Assembly: GCF_009749405.1 (NCBI RefSeq)
Contig: NZ_WBIQ01000009.1
Span: 1 to 64,000 of the forward strand
Source of the DNA: Agromyces lapidis
GTDB taxonomy: Bacteria > Actinomycetota > Actinomycetes > Actinomycetales > Microbacteriaceae
DNA length: 64,000 nt
Direction of reading: 5' to 3'
Shown: piece by piece, positions 37,704 to 63,308 of the stretch
Position numbering within the stretch: the stretch's first letter is position 1
How the letters are laid out: each line of letters starts with the position of its first letter
The notes under the pieces: generated by a model
Told to the model about the DNA's origin: nothing
Databases searched by the model: none
What the model saw: only the letters and a program-made list of their open reading frames with translations
Position numbers and translations under genes: made by a program

Positions 37704-38498
37704 TCAGTCGACGAGCGCCCCCGCTGAGAGGTTCGCGATCGCTCCGGTCATCGAGCGGGCACGGTCGGATGCCACGAACGCGAGGTAGTCCGCGACCTCT
37801 TCGAGCGTCGGCAGGCGGCCCAGCACCGTCATGCCCACCAGCCCGGTGAGCCATTCATCCATCGGGATGCCACCGGCCGCCGCGGTTCGGCCGAACATCG
37901 CTCCCGTGTACGACGTCGCGAGCGCGTCGGACATGGCGTGCGGCCGCACGCAGACCACCCGCACCCCGTCGGGTCCGAGCTCGCCGGCGAGCGCGCGCGA
38001 GAATCCCTCGAGCCCGGCCGACTGCGCCGCGTTGCCGAGGAGCCCACGCCCGGTGAGCCGCGCGCCCGGCGTCGAGATCGTGAGGATCACCCCGCTCCGC
38101 TGCGCGATCATGTGCCGCGCCACCGCCTTCGCGGTCGCGAAGTTCGTCTGCAGGTACCCGACCACGGGGTGCAGGTAGTCGTCGAGGGAGGTCTCGGCGA
38201 TCGGCAGGCCCTGCACGTGGTCGAAGCCGACGGCATTGAGGGCGATGTCGATGCGGCCGGCGGCCTCGGCGACGTCGTCGACATGCCGCTCGACCGCGTC
38301 GGGGTCCATCGCGTCGACCACCGCGACCTCGACCTCAGCACCCTCTGCTCTCGCCGCGGATGCCGCAGCCTCGAGCCGAGGCAGGCTCCTCCCCGCGAGG
38401 TACAGCCGGGCGCCCTCGCGGGCGAACACCCGCGCTGCCGCGCCTCCGATCGAACCGCCACCGCCGTGGATCACGGCCACCTTGTTCTCGAGCAGCAT
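37704..38498 (-). CDS. SDR-family protein with a non-canonical active site
   Basis: A 264-residue Rossmann-fold protein of the short-chain dehydrogenase type. The cofactor loop is VIHGGGGSIGGAAA near the N-terminus, with NAVGFDHV replacing the usual NNAG. At the position of the catalytic Y-x-x-x-K it reads GNAAQSAGLEGF, so both Tyr and Lys are absent. It may bind NAD(P) without classical oxidoreductase activity, or use a different mechanism; relatives with the same change exist in actinobacteria as far as I recall. Its promoter carries two TGCAAC-type operators shared with the SRPBCC-arsR operon. Confidence 0.82.
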   Translation of the reverse strand: MLLENKVAVIHGGGGSIGGAAARVFAREGARLYLAGRSLPRLEAAASAARAEGAEVEVAVVDAMDPDAVERHVDDVAEAAGRIDIALNAVGFDHVQGLPIAETSLDDYLHPVVGYLQTNFATAKAVARHMIAQRSGVILTISTPGARLTGRGLLGNAAQSAGLEGFSRALAGELGPDGVRVVCVRPHAMSDALATSYTGAMFGRTAAAGGIPMDEWLTGLVGMTVLGRLPTLEEVADYLAFVASDRARSMTGAIANLSAGALVD

Positions 38499-38522: not shown

Positions 38523-38573
38523 TGCAACTCAATGGTTGCATATTGCGAAAAGAAGTGCAATCAATCGATTGCA
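38523..38573 (-). promoter_or_regulatory. Two 6-6-6 operators 33 bp apart before the SDR gene
   Basis: Site 1: TGCAAC-TCAATG-GTTGCA (38523-38540). Site 2: TGCAAT-CAATCG-ATTGCA (38556-38573). Both are perfect 6-bp inverted repeats with a 6-base spacer, and their starts are 33 bp apart. They lie 25-75 bases before the SDR start. The same pair with the same spacing precedes the SRPBCC-arsR operon at 62199-62249. Confidence 0.85.
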
Positions 38574-38575
38574 GA

Positions 38576-39034
38576 TCAACCCGAGCGCGGCCGGAGCACG
38601 ATCACCGGGATCTCCCGATCGGTGATCCGCTCGTATCTCGAGAAACCCCGGGCCGTCGCCGTGATCTGCGCCCATGCGGCGGCACGCTCGGCACCGTGCA
38701 GCTGCTCGGCGACGACGTCGATGCGCCGCCCCGCGAACTCGATGCGCACCTGGTCGGGGTGCCCGGCGATGTTGTAGTACCAGGCGGGGTTCTGCGCGGC
38801 GCCGTTCGCCGACGCGACGATGTACCTCGCGCCGCCGCCCGCGGGGAACCATCGCACCGGCGTCACCCGCTCGAGGCCCGTCCGGCGACCGATCGTGACG
38901 AGCGCCAGCTTGGTGCCGCGACGATCGCCCTTGCGGCGGATGCGCTCGGCCATGCGCAGGTTGGCCCACCGCTCGAATCGGTTGCGGGCCGGCTGGTGCG
39001 CCCCGTGGGTTCCGTTCGACGTGTCGAATGCCAT
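38576..39034 (-). CDS. F420-type (DDN/DUF385) nitroreductase-family protein
   Basis: A 152-residue member of the deazaflavin-dependent nitroreductase family: TKLALVTIGRRTGLERVTPV, WFPAGGGARYIVASANGAAQNPAWYYNI in pieces (the W-Y-x-N-L-like motif reads PAWYYNIAGHPD), then VRIEFAGRRIDV and a closing helix. Proteins of this type bind F420 or related cofactors and reduce quinones or nitro compounds. Its stop is 3 bases from the operator pair of the downstream SDR gene, so the two are probably separate transcripts. Confidence 0.85.
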   Translation of the reverse strand: MAFDTSNGTHGAHQPARNRFERWANLRMAERIRRKGDRRGTKLALVTIGRRTGLERVTPVRWFPAGGGARYIVASANGAAQNPAWYYNIAGHPDQVRIEFAGRRIDVVAEQLHGAERAAAWAQITATARGFSRYERITDREIPVIVLRPRSG

Positions 39035-39041
39035 GGGATCG

Positions 39042-39130
39042 CCTCCTCCCGGTGGCGAATGCCGCTCACCCCAATCATCCCGCCGATTCCGCCTTGCCGC
39101 CGCACCGAGTTCCGCCGATTCGGCGTGCCG
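39042..39130. repeat. Imperfect direct repeat flanking secreted protein B, left copy
   Basis: About 90 bases similar to 39499-39592. The last 23 bases (AGTTCCGCCGATTCGGCGTG...) are identical in both; upstream similarity (CCTCC...GGTGGCGA, TCATCCCGCCG) is interrupted by substitutions and small indels. Confidence 0.65.
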
Positions 39131-39157
39131 CTGCTCGCGCCGCGCGATGGGGAGCGG

Positions 39158-39192
39158 TGCCCATTCGTCTCCCGCTCCATCATCACTAGCCT
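39158..39192 (+). promoter_or_regulatory. Conserved promoter block of small secreted protein B
   Basis: TGCCCATTC (39158-39166), 20 bases, TAGCCT (39187-39192), the same boxes and spacing as at 32318-32352. The leader from TAGCCT to the ATG is also largely conserved (CCGCGATGAAGGGGAACACA). Confidence 0.6.
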
Positions 39193-39247
39193 CGGGTCGA
39201 ACCGTCGGGGCGCCGCTCCGCACGGAAACCGCGATGAAGGGGAACAC

Positions 39248-39484
39248 ATGCGTGCACGGGTGACGAAGGCGCTGGCTGCCGTCGGGCTGAGCGTGGCGAT
39301 GATCGCAGGCGGGGCTGCGATGTCGGCCAGCGCCGCCGAGGTCTGGTACAAGGTCACGGGATACAGCCAGTCCGAATGTCTGCGAGTCCAGAACCAGTAC
39401 CGCGCCTCGGGAGCGCACATCGTGACGGCGTGCCACTACCGCTCGTACGACGGGAAGTGGGCGTTCGAGTATTCCGTGAGCTGA
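39248..39484 (+). CDS. Small secreted two-cysteine protein B
   Basis: A 78-residue paralog of the protein at 32411. The signal peptide is nearly identical (MRARVTKALAAVGLSVAMIA, GGAAMSASA). The mature part keeps WYKVTGYSQSEC, YRASGAHIVTACHYRSYDGK and both cysteines (44 and 62), but the C-terminus differs (EYSVS against SYYWIS). Substitutions cluster outside the Cys/Trp/Tyr core, which suggests that the fold is kept. Function is unknown. It sits in its own transcription unit, flanked by imperfect direct repeats. Confidence 0.75.
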   Translation: MRARVTKALAAVGLSVAMIAGGAAMSASAAEVWYKVTGYSQSECLRVQNQYRASGAHIVTACHYRSYDGKWAFEYSVS

Positions 39485-60074: not shown

Positions 60075-61370
60075 ATGCCGAACCCTACGCTGCCACCCAT
60101 GAGCGGCTCGCCGTCGCACCACTACCTCGTCGCGCTCGCCGACGGGGGCGGCACCGTGCCCGTCGAGCTCGGCGTGGTGCGCCGGCTCGTCGAGCGCGGC
60201 CATCGGGTCACCGCGCTCGTCGACGAGTCGATGGCCGCGCCCAGCCGCGCGACGGGTGCGGCAGTGCACCCCTGGAGCGCCCGGCCGGGCACCGAGTTCC
60301 GCGACTGGGCGATCAGGAACCCCCTCGAGCTCGCGAAGAGCATGTCGGAGCACTACCTCTCGGGTCCGGCCGCCGGCCACGCGGCGGACACGCGCGCCGC
60401 CATCGACGCCGCACGCCCCGATCTCGTCGTGACGACGTTCTTCACCCTCGGTGCGATGATCGCCGCCGAGGCGCACGAAGTGCCGTTCGACGTGCTGATG
60501 CCCAACGTCTACATCGCGCCGGTGCCGGGTCGCCCGCCTGGGGGCGCGGGCATGCGGCCGATGCGCGGACCGCTCGGGGCGATGCGGGATCGCATGGCGA
60601 GCGCCGCGACCACGCGGCTGCTCGACCGCTACACCGTGGATCCGCTGAACGCGGTGCGGGCGCGGCACGGCCTCGACCGAATCGGGCACGTCTGGGATCA
60701 GGTGCACCGCGCGCGACGCGAACTCGTGCTGACGACCGCCGAGTTCGAGTTCGGCGGCGACTTCCCGCCGAACGTGCGCTTCGTCGGCCCGGTGCTCGAC
60801 GACCCGGCCTGGGCCGCGCTCGTGCAGTTCGATCCGCCCGCGGGCGACGCCCCGCTCGTGCTGGTGTCGCTCTCGTCGACGTTCCAGAACCATGCCGACT
60901 GCCTGCAGCGCATCGCCGACGCGCTCGGCATGCTGCCGGTGCGCGGGGTCATCACGACGGGGCCGTCGATTCCGCCCGAACTCATCGAGGCGCCCGGCAA
61001 CGCCGTCGTCGTGGCCTCCGCGCCGCATCGCGTGGCGATGCGCCATGCGAGCCTCGTCGTGACCCACGGCGGTCACGGCACGGTGATGAAGGCGCTCGCG
61101 GCCGGCCTGCCGCTCGTGGTCCTCCACCACGGACGCGATCAGGCCGACAACGCCGCCCGGGTCGTGACGCGGGGCGCCGGCGTCGCCGTGCCGCGTCGCG
61201 CGCCCGCCGACGAGATCGCCGCGGCGATCGAACGGGTGCTCCGCCACGAGCGCTACCGGGCGGCTGCGGTCCGACTCGGCGCGGCGATCAACCGGGATGT
61301 CGCGGCGAACACCCTGCTCGACGAACTCGAGCAGCTCGCCCCGCTCACAACCCCTCCGCGATCTCCTTGA
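60075..61370 (+). CDS. GT1-type (UGT/MGT-like) glycosyltransferase
   Basis: A 431-residue GT-B glycosyltransferase. The N-terminal acceptor domain has DGGGTVPVELGVVRRLVERG, and the C-terminal donor domain has the hallmark VVTHGGHGTVMKALAAGLPL and LHHGRDQADNAARV, where the sugar nucleotide binds. It likely moves a sugar onto a small lipophilic or macrolide-like acceptor. The ATG at 60075 is taken; a second at 60099 is possible. Its 3' end overlaps the convergent arsR gene by 26 bases. It is not in an obvious biosynthetic cluster. Confidence 0.87.
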   Translation: MPNPTLPPMSGSPSHHYLVALADGGGTVPVELGVVRRLVERGHRVTALVDESMAAPSRATGAAVHPWSARPGTEFRDWAIRNPLELAKSMSEHYLSGPAAGHAADTRAAIDAARPDLVVTTFFTLGAMIAAEAHEVPFDVLMPNVYIAPVPGRPPGGAGMRPMRGPLGAMRDRMASAATTRLLDRYTVDPLNAVRARHGLDRIGHVWDQVHRARRELVLTTAEFEFGGDFPPNVRFVGPVLDDPAWAALVQFDPPAGDAPLVLVSLSSTFQNHADCLQRIADALGMLPVRGVITTGPSIPPELIEAPGNAVVVASAPHRVAMRHASLVVTHGGHGTVMKALAAGLPLVVLHHGRDQADNAARVVTRGAGVAVPRRAPADEIAAAIERVLRHERYRAAAVRLGAAINRDVAANTLLDELEQLAPLTTPPRSP

Positions 61371-61662
61371 TCGCGGCCAGTCGGCGCTCCCACTCGCGGC
61401 CGACGGCGTCGAGGCGGGCCGCGGTCGCACTGAGTTCCGACCCGAGCACGCGGTAGCGCACCTCGCGGCCGACGCGCACCGGCTCGACGACGCCGACCTC
61501 CGCCAGCACGGCGAGGTGCTTGGCAATGGCCTGCCGGGTCACCGGCAGCCGCTCGGCGAGGGCGGACGCCGAGGCATCCCCCTCGCCGAGCGCCGCGAGG
61601 ATGCTCCATCGCGTCTCGTCACCCAGGGCGGCGAACACGGGAACCAGCGTCGCAGTGCTCAT
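61345..61662 (-). CDS. ArsR-family transcriptional regulator
   Basis: A 105-residue winged-helix repressor: FAALGDETRWSILAALGEGD, ASALAERLPVTRQAIAKHLA, then VEPVRVGREVRYRV as the wing. No Cys metal motif is present, so it is of the non-metal type found with SRPBCC/AHSA1 partners. Its ATG overlaps the stop of the SRPBCC gene. The operon promoter carries two TGCAAC-type operators, and the same operator pair precedes an SDR gene 24 kb away, so its regulon probably covers both. Confidence 0.9.
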   Translation of the reverse strand: MSTATLVPVFAALGDETRWSILAALGEGDASASALAERLPVTRQAIAKHLAVLAEVGVVEPVRVGREVRYRVLGSELSATAARLDAVGREWERRLAAIKEIAEGL

Positions 61663-62141
61663 GCGTCGCCCTCGAGCAGGGCGACGAGCTTGTCGAGTTC
61701 GAGGACCCAACCCTCGGCGTGGTCGGCCATGTTGGCGGCCGGGTCGCTCGTGCGGTCGAACCCGGTCTCGACGACCGTGAGTTCGGTGCCGCCGTCGACC
61801 TCGTCGAGGGTGAAGGTGAAGACGGTCGTCGTCGTCTCGTCGATCGCGCCGTGCGCGCGACGGGCCGCGTCGTCGTTGCCCCAGCGGTACGACACGCTGC
61901 GCGGGGGGTCGATCGTCTCGACGCGGATCGGGATCACGCCGTACCCGTCGAACGTCATCGTGCCGGCCGCGCCGACGCCGGCGCCGTCGAGCACCGTCTC
62001 CCCGAACCAGCGGGAGATGTGCTCGGGCTCGGTGACGGCGCGCCACACCTTGTCGACGGGGGCGCCGATGCGGATCGTGCGCCGTACCGTGAAGGCCCCT
62101 TCATCGACGACGGATGCCTCGTTGCGGGTCTGACTCACCAT
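61659..62141 (-). CDS. SRPBCC/AHSA1-family protein
   Basis: A 160-residue helix-grip (START-like) protein: FTVRRTIRIGAPVDKVWRAV, ISRWFGETVLDG, then strands and the closing helix HAEGWVLELDKLVALL. AHSA1-type proteins bind hydrophobic ligands or chaperones and are often encoded with an ArsR regulator, as here by ATGA overlap. AAGGAG precedes the ATG. The ligand is unknown and may be the signal for the regulator. Confidence 0.9.
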   Translation of the reverse strand: MVSQTRNEASVVDEGAFTVRRTIRIGAPVDKVWRAVTEPEHISRWFGETVLDGAGVGAAGTMTFDGYGVIPIRVETIDPPRSVSYRWGNDDAARRAHGAIDETTTTVFTFTLDEVDGGTELTVVETGFDRTSDPAANMADHAEGWVLELDKLVALLEGDA

Positions 62142-62198: not shown

Positions 62199-62249
62199 TG
62201 CAACTCGATAGTTGCATAGCATCGAGACGAGCGCAACCCTTTGGTTGCA
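62199..62249 (-). promoter_or_regulatory. Two 6-6-6 operators 33 bp apart before the SRPBCC-arsR operon
   Basis: Site 1: TGCAAC-TCGATA-GTTGCA (62199-62216). Site 2: CGCAAC-CCTTTG-GTTGCA (62232-62249; one mismatch in the first base). The starts are 33 bp apart, exactly as in the pair at 38523-38573. They lie 58-108 bases before the SRPBCC start and just after the end of the upstream quinone-oxidoreductase gene. Confidence 0.85.
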
Positions 62250-62255
62250 TCCCGC

Positions 62256-63308
62256 TCAGCCCACCCGGAGCACCACGCTCCCCCGCTTGTGCCCGCCGTC
62301 GACGTGGCGATGCGCGTCGACGATCCCGTCGAAGCCCACGACGCGATCGACGACCGGCCGCAGCACCCCCGCCTCGGCGAGCGCGGCGAGCCGCTCCATG
62401 CCGGCGGCATCCATGCGGCCGCCCTCGTGATCGACGACGAGGCCGCTGCGGCGAGACTGCCGCTTCGCCCAGACCAGCCCGTGCAGGTCGAGGATGACGA
62501 GGAGCAGGGTGCCGCCCGGGCGGAGGAGGTGCGCGACCCGCTCGAAGGGGGCGTTGCCGACGCACTCGACGATCACGTCGTAGCGGGCCGCCTCGCCCGG
62601 CGCCGCGAAGTCCTGCTGCGTGTAGTCGATGACGCGCTCGGCGCCGAGCGAGCGCACGAGCTCGGCGTTGCGGCCGCTCGTCACCGCCGTCACCCGTGCG
62701 CCGCGGGCGGCGGCGAGCTGCACCGCCGCCGAGCCCACCGCACCGGAGGCGCCGTTCACGAGCACCTCGCTGCCCGGGACGATCTCGACGCGATCGAGGT
62801 AGCGCAGCGCGGTGTGCCCGCCGAACACGATCGCGGCGGCCTCCTCGAACGAGAGGTTCGCCGGCTTGCGCGCGACCTGGCCGTCGGCCGCGATCGTCAC
62901 GAACTCGGCATGGCAGCCCATGCGCGAACCGCGCATGACGATCACCTCGTCGCCCACGGCGAAGCGCCCGACGCCCGAACCGACCGCCGCGACGACCCCC
63001 GCGGCATCCATGCCGAGCACCCGCACCTTCGGCCGGAACAGTCCGACCGTCGGCGCCACGAGCAGGCTGAAGCCGCGCGGCAGGCGACGCGAGCGCATCC
63101 GCTCGTCGGCGACGCTGACCGTCGAGGCGCGCACACGCACGAGCAGCTCGCCTGGGCCCGGCTCGGGGCGGGGCAGTTCGACGAGGCGCACGACCTCGGG
63201 CCCCCCGAATCGCTCGATGCGGGCGGCGCGCATCACCGTGCTCGATTCGGCGCGGGGCTCGCCTCCGTGACGCGGGTGCGTGGTCTGGTGGTGCGATCCG
63301 ATGGACAT
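62256..63308 (-). CDS. Zinc-free MDR/quinone-oxidoreductase-family protein
   Basis: A 350-residue medium-chain dehydrogenase/reductase of the quinone oxidoreductase type. MRAARIERFGGPEVVRLVEL starts the catalytic domain; GMDAAGVVAAVGSGV follows; the NADPH site is GSEVLVNGASGAVGSAAVQL. No zinc-ligand cysteines are present. The first 25 residues (to STV) are an extension with several His; an ATG at about residue 26 is an alternative start. It is divergent from a TetR gene at 63410, with two abutting operators between them, so it is likely induced by a quinone- or drug-like compound. Confidence 0.87.
   Translation of the reverse strand: MSIGSHHQTTHPRHGGEPRAESSTVMRAARIERFGGPEVVRLVELPRPEPGPGELLVRVRASTVSVADERMRSRRLPRGFSLLVAPTVGLFRPKVRVLGMDAAGVVAAVGSGVGRFAVGDEVIVMRGSRMGCHAEFVTIAADGQVARKPANLSFEEAAAIVFGGHTALRYLDRVEIVPGSEVLVNGASGAVGSAAVQLAAARGARVTAVTSGRNAELVRSLGAERVIDYTQQDFAAPGEAARYDVIVECVGNAPFERVAHLLRPGGTLLLVILDLHGLVWAKRQSRRSGLVVDHEGGRMDAAGMERLAALAEAGVLRPVVDRVVGFDGIVDAHRHVDGGHKRGSVVLRVG

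Follow-up and report, generated by a model that had tools for sequence, protein, structure and literature searches.

The window, that is, the whole stretch of 64,000 nucleotides of Agromyces lapidis DNA that was analysed, carries two minus-strand units preceded by similar pairs of inverted repeats. The first unit is an SDR-like gene (37704-38498, minus strand), which encodes a 264-aa protein lacking the Tyr-Lys pair that is typical of classical SDRs. The second is an operon in which the gene of a 160-aa SRPBCC (AHSA1) protein comes first (61659-62141, minus strand; PF08327, E 1.2e-19) and is followed by the gene of a 105-aa ArsR-family regulator (61345-61662, minus strand), whose start overlaps the SRPBCC stop.

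The regulator belongs to the ArsR family (HTH_20/HTH_5) and has a winged HTH (PF12840, E 1.4e-11); it scored 63.3 bits against NF033788, above the cut-off of 55. A metal-binding cysteine motif is absent, and as no cysteine is present in the window ArsR or in 90 of 91 distinct aligned relatives, the protein is predicted to have an ArsR-like fold but is unlikely to be a Cys-based metal sensor. The SDR-like protein has a glycine-rich cofactor motif, GGGGSIG, and residues G12, G13, G15 and G18 are present in all 34 aligned sequences, the window's included. The catalytic YxxxK motif was found in none of these 34 sequences, which have N156 and S160 at the aligned positions. Because the cofactor glycines are kept while Asn and Ser replace the catalytic Tyr and Lys, this protein may be a ligand or cofactor binder rather than a reductase.

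Four inverted repeats were read directly in the window, two upstream of each minus-strand unit (SDR ATG at 38498, SRPBCC ATG at 62141). In the SDR promoter, the proximal operator (38523-38540, minus strand, TGCAACTCAATGGTTGCA) is a perfect inverted repeat, TGCAAC/GTTGCA, as is the distal operator (38556-38573, minus strand, TGCAATCAATCGATTGCA), TGCAAT/ATTGCA. In the SRPBCC-arsR promoter, the proximal operator (62199-62216, minus strand, TGCAACTCGATAGTTGCA) is also perfect; the distal operator (62232-62249, minus strand, CGCAACCCTTTGGTTGCA) is the only one of the four with a mismatch between its arms (one mismatch, CGCAAC/GTTGCA). Site starts are 33 bp apart in both pairs (38523/38556 and 62199/62232). 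The original prediction, that twin pairs spaced by 33 bp lie at both promoters and that one of the four sites has a single mismatch, was exact on both counts.

The pattern TGCAAC-N6-GTTGCA with up to two mismatches matched exactly these four sites in the window; 100 shuffles of the window gave a mean of 0.94 matches and none reached four. In the whole genome (3,801,572 bases), the strict pattern YGCAAY-N6-RTTGCR occurred at these four places only, compared with one occurrence per strand for the reversed-pattern control. The same strict operator is thus present at both promoters, as had been claimed, and nowhere else in the genome, and the scan for unrelated 33-bp pairs yielded no strict site beyond the four. 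Judged over many relatives, the operator is better written TGCAACY-N4-RGTTGCA.

The ORF whose end lies just upstream of the SDR operators (38576-39436, minus strand) matches an F420H2-dependent quinone reductase (PF04075, E 2e-23), and a quinone-oxidoreductase-type dehydrogenase gene (62256-63308, minus strand) lies upstream of the SRPBCC-arsR operators; the latter adjoins the operators in two other genomes as well (G240 and G393, loci L033 and L058).

Occurrence of operator pairs and the genes downstream

Genomes of the same family, genus and class were searched for the pair; the genome draws overlap, the genomes are related and the pattern search detects strict sites only. The 33-bp pair, with one mismatch, was found in 27 of 299 family genomes, and the reversed control in 0/299. 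When the gap was left free (spacing 16-46), pairs were found in 53/398 family genomes and the reversed-pattern control in 2/398. Counted by hand, the 67 family pairs had spacings of 33 (43 pairs), 34 (12), 46 (3), 45 (1), 23 (2), 28 (1) and 39 (1); the two 23-bp pairs are third sites and the other four pairs are a coding tandem repeat in G226, which was set aside and is not among the fetched loci. A spacing of 33 or 34 bp therefore accounts for 55/67 family pairs, although any spacing from 16 to 46 was allowed. In the genus, where spacings of 31-35 were asked for, 42/60 genomes had pairs (60 pairs in total; control 0/60). Class-wide, a stricter pattern was found in 20/394 genomes, one pair each (control 0/394), with spacings of 33 (10), 34 (6), 46 (3) and 29 (1), that is, 33 or 34 in 16/20. 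Six of these class pairs are in the window's own family and 14 outside it, and SRPBCC or ArsR relatives were present in every fetched locus of the latter. Spacings of 23-29, 39 and 45 are rare, and the strict pair is absent from most genomes searched. At three loci (L017, L052 and L124), a third operator copy lies 23-26 bp from a pair.

The fetched loci contain 129 distinct pairs, 113 of them with a spacing of 33 or 34 bp. The pairs were found without use of gene type, and gene starts were extrapolated from tblastn. Within 170 bp downstream, a gene encoding SRPBCC (79 pairs), SDR (18), MFS (14) or a second AHSA1-like protein (1) is found, so that 112/113 pairs lie just before a gene of the set; the one pair left over has an ArsR relative further downstream. 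Two pairs with other spacings, in G213 (spacing 39) and G280:C12 (spacing 28), had none of the searched genes nearby and were counted as misses. No ArsR hit was obtained near SRPBCC at two loci, L012 and L188.

In the genus, a strict pair was found within 2 kb upstream of SRPBCC at 37/40 loci and within 200 bp at 27; at the ten loci with a pair beyond 200 bp, an MFS gene comes after the pair. The other three loci lack a strict pair, but one of them has a pair that departs from it by a single mismatch. The one MFS protein tested, from a relative, scored 219.4 bits against the NF033135 Cmx/CmrA equivalog, below the cut-off of 400, and is thus of a Cmx/CmrA-like type and not a member of that family. 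An MFS ortholog was sought in the window's own genome, which gave only five matches of 30-35% identity.

Predicted promoter boxes within the operators

In the SDR promoter, a predicted -35 box (TTGCAC, 38555-38560, minus strand) lies in the right half of the distal operator, and a predicted -10 box (AACCAT, 38532-38537, minus strand) follows after 17 bp, within the proximal operator; a TG at 38540-38539 is compatible with an extended -10. The SRPBCC-arsR promoter has the same arrangement, with a predicted -35 (TTGCGC, 62231-62236, minus strand) in the right half of the distal operator and, 17 bp from it, a predicted -10 (AACTAT, 62208-62213, minus strand) inside the proximal operator. The original prediction overlooked that the predicted promoter is contained in the operators, and that a pump gene is often in the set.

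Read in the direction of the downstream gene, each pair has a distal site ending with TTGC and a proximal site starting with TGCAAC. AACYMT or a close form is found exactly 17 bp from TTGCNN in the 33-bp pairs, with T at the sixth base in 88/88. In 33- and 34-bp pairs the TTG and the A at position 2 are set by the operator; T6 is independent of the palindrome and is the sole independent promoter test. At the corresponding position of the distal site, T occurs in 11/88 33-bp pairs; at the mirror position of the proximal site, A occurs in 16/88. T6 was present in 15/15 SDR, 12/12 MFS and 60/60 SRPBCC promoters, and in 62/62 once similar sequences were thinned out. The hexamer of the 34-bp pairs is found at 18 bp, and both of these pairs without T6 are SRPBCC promoters. 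In the 46-bp pairs, whose -10 is independent of the operator, a hexamer with A2 and T6 was found at exactly 17 bp in 5/6 and at the remaining offsets from 10 to 26 in 0/6. A sigma-A-type arrangement, that is, a -35 TTG followed after 17-18 bp by a -10 with A2 and T6, is thus present in 88/88, 22/24 and 5/6 of the 33-, 34- and 46-bp pairs, respectively. The single 29-bp pair does not fit this geometry, and AACYMT is a weak -10 match (A at position 1).

The original prediction gave three helical turns as the cause of the 33-bp distance. By this explanation, two dimers would bind cooperatively on one face of the DNA and the promoter overlap would be incidental. Indeed, 33 bp is 3.14 turns, and half-site cooperativity was suggested for another ArsR protein, Rv2034, by its authors (PMC3338718). 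At 10.5 bp per turn, however, spacings of 33, 34 and 46 bp correspond by arithmetic to phases of 51, 86 and 137 degrees: the 34-bp pairs (24 distinct) and 46-bp pairs (6 distinct) shift the phase but keep TTG and the -10 box 17 or 18 bp apart. As the three spacings differ in helical phase, phase alone is insufficient, and helical phasing as sole cause is weakened. The explanation also leaves the orientation-specific T of the proximal core unexplained. Three helical turns are probably not the reason for 33 bp, and a spacing set by helical phase is unlikely; cooperative binding at this distance may still occur. Instead, the distance would be a consequence of the 17-bp spacer that a sigma-A promoter has. 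The design looks like a composite operator-promoter of an ArsR-COG3832 module, in which the predicted -35 is half of one operator, the predicted -10 is part of the other, and operator spacing equals promoter spacer plus a constant.

Association of the SDR gene with SRPBCC-arsR

An SDR of at least 63% identity was found in 34 genomes of the genus; a 35th (G426, 42%) was left out of this set, and a second SDR copy of G400 is outside the counts. The twin operator lies directly upstream of the SDR gene in 18 of the 34 and before an MFS-SDR operon in G413, and a single strict site is found upstream in G432 (63% identity). In 14/34 the SDR gene belongs to another operon, ArsR'-SRPBCC'-SDR, whose ArsR' is about 30% identical to the window ArsR.

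Each of the 18 genomes with an operator-bearing SDR also has a P0003-type SRPBCC. In the five SDR genomes without P0003-type SRPBCC there is no operator at the SDR (Fisher p 0.016, uncorrected for kinship); these five carry the ArsR' operon instead, with the SDR inside it, and in four of them twin pairs are found elsewhere beside a distant ArsR of about 55% identity. In 10 genomes with the SRPBCC, the SDR has no twin operator before its gene or operon. The co-occurrence of operator-bearing SDR and P0003-type SRPBCC is weak support for a regulon. On a quick protein tree the twin-operator label must change three times, and well-supported branches force two of these changes. In Agromyces, 11 to 84 kb separate the SDR and SRPBCC-arsR units in 17/18 genomes, and in the remaining genome the two are on different contigs.

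Among 31 named genomes, which overlap with the remaining genome set, the SDR is associated with the twin operator in 21, with the ArsR' operon in 8 and with neither in 2, both Leifsonia; three distant loci of 34 (23-32% identity) were dropped, and the Agromyces ones repeat the genus set. The SDR of A. ramosus DSM 43045 is among those with the pair. In 9 of the 21 twin-operator SDR loci, from Microbacterium or MAGs, SRPBCC-arsR is the immediate upstream neighbour on the same strand, with an ArsR 82-87% identical to that of the window. In these nine loci, the SRPBCC-arsR promoter itself is without a twin pair; in eight of them it is preceded by one altered site, TGTAACCT-N4-GTTGCA. In this altered-site variant (L234, L241, L242, L246, L247, L248, L250 and L251), the -10 becomes TAACCT.

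One ArsR regulon over SRPBCC-arsR and SDR is strongly supported by these comparisons, because the SDR gene with twin operators adjoins SRPBCC-arsR in nine loci. The claim that SDR, SRPBCC and ArsR form one unit holds, both in these nine Microbacterium-type loci and in the 14/34 genomes with the SDR in an ArsR'-SRPBCC' operon. Control of both units by ArsR, also claimed, is supported as likely: the shared operators make ArsR the probable regulator, predicted to bind at both promoters. Could the SDR pair be read by a different DNA-binding protein? The genome has six other ArsR-like stretches, one of which is 49% identical with an internal stop; the next intact match, however, is 40% identical over 77 aa and the others do not exceed this identity. 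As the SDR operator is that of the ArsR operon, found nowhere else in the genome in its strict form, and as the SDR gene adjoins SRPBCC-arsR in the nine loci, another reader of the SDR pair has little probability.

The ArsR'-SRPBCC'-SDR operons (L158, L159, L161-L167, L169-L171, L089 and L091) mostly have TTGAC/TATATT promoters directly before the ATG. Counted by eye, TTGAC was present in 13/14 and TATATT in 12/14, 17 bp apart in those measured, consistent with such a spacing being usual for promoters in these bacteria. In the 110 bp upstream of the 14 ArsR' genes, no TGCAAC pair was found and no shared palindrome was seen by eye.

Proposed mechanism and known systems

We assign a probability of about 0.8 to a reading in which ArsR would be a repressor acting on paired operators that form both promoter boxes, with SRPBCC-arsR and SDR as targets. 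Observed in the sequences are the sites, their near absence elsewhere in the genome, their conservation, the gene association and the promoter-like geometry; from them we infer ArsR binding, repression and a ligand. ArsR (61345-61662), acting as a repressor and not as a Cys-based metal sensor, would bind TGCAACY-N4-RGTTGCA, presumably in dimeric form. The -35 (TTG) would be provided by the distal site, through its downstream half, and the (extended) -10 (TG-C-AACYMT) by the upstream half and core of the proximal site. Two bound ArsR dimers would then cover the -35 and the -10 and block RNA polymerase, leading to autorepression at the SRPBCC-arsR operon and, 24 kb away, to repression of the SDR gene in trans. 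ArsR would be released by a small organic ligand, perhaps one handled by SRPBCC, SDR and, in relatives, the Cmx/CmrA-like pump; a ligand of this kind would suit both the SRPBCC fold and the pump.

Repressors with operators overlapping the -35 and -10 occlude RNA polymerase by dimers placed over the promoter boxes. Compared with these, the present design has two full palindromes, one box each, and the spacing of the pair tracks the promoter spacer across the class.

The two-gene ArsR-COG3832 (AHA1/SRPBCC) module was listed by Makarova et al. (2009) as a toxin-antitoxin-like pair, with resistance as the most plausible role (PMC2701414). As in that module, which is mostly chromosomal, an ArsR HTH protein without metal-binding motifs is encoded in the window beside an AHSA1/SRPBCC gene, and the two genes overlap (61345-61662 and 61659-62141); the ArsR proteins paired with COG3832 were described there as missing these motifs. 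The passages of that article on ArsR-COG3832 make no mention of operators and present the module strictly as a unique pair, whereas here SDR and MFS genes, too, are preceded by the same operators, either in trans or within an operon. ArsR-AHA1 is mentioned as fusions only in the relevant text of PMC2577659.

Rv2034 of Mycobacterium tuberculosis is an autorepressing ArsR that recognizes a palindrome, CCGTAAGT-N4-ACTTACGG, at its gene start (PMC3338718). Like the window operon, Rv2034-Rv2036 combines an ArsR with a polyketide_cyc2 (SRPBCC-type) partner, and a palindrome with a 4-bp spacer is likewise present upstream of the window operon (TGCAACY-N4-RGTTGCA compared with CCGTAAGT-N4-ACTTACGG). 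It differs by its single palindrome, by other half-site bases, by its reported targets phoP and dosR, and by the ArsR gene being first (PMC3338718). The closest solved relative of the window ArsR is PDB entry 2oqg (E 9e-37, residues 4-104), whose molecule name gives neither function nor DNA site; a search for 2OQG with ArsR found no paper in open-licence PMC. Similarly, no paper on the twin-operator design was present among the matches listed in open-licence PMC.

It could be argued that ArsR and SRPBCC make up a toxin-antitoxin module and that the SDR site is a by-product, since the pair is a candidate of this kind in PMC2701414 and another START-domain protein, Rv0910, is described as having acted as a toxin in PMC2781298. 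The same operators are nevertheless found before the Cmx/CmrA-type MFS gene and the SDR gene, which fits a ligand-response regulon, and the authors of PMC2701414 themselves preferred resistance; a toxin-antitoxin module has very little probability. Finally, chance or repeat-borne pairs do exist (the G226 tandem repeat; the reversed control in G251 and G289), but a chance origin of the twin sites is rejected by the whole-genome and multi-genome reversed-pattern controls and by the gene association of the 33/34-bp pairs and is of negligible probability, and the claim that chance is unlikely is borne out by the shuffles as well as by these controls.

When the ArsR-COG3832 pair was listed in 2009, its role was left open (PMC2701414). 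The conserved operator signature would indicate its regulon, namely the pump, the SDR-like protein and SRPBCC, and would thereby make function and ligand directly testable. More tentatively, and with less than even odds, ArsR-COG3832 pairs in Actinomycetes might be the sensor of a widespread organic-ligand response with composite operator-promoters, and not toxin-antitoxin modules; the effectors would be an SRPBCC binder, a non-catalytic SDR-like partner and a Cmx-like pump, and targets would shift between twin operators in trans and a distant ArsR'-SRPBCC' operon in cis. With the rule that operator-pair spacing equals promoter spacer plus a constant, further targets could be found in other genomes.
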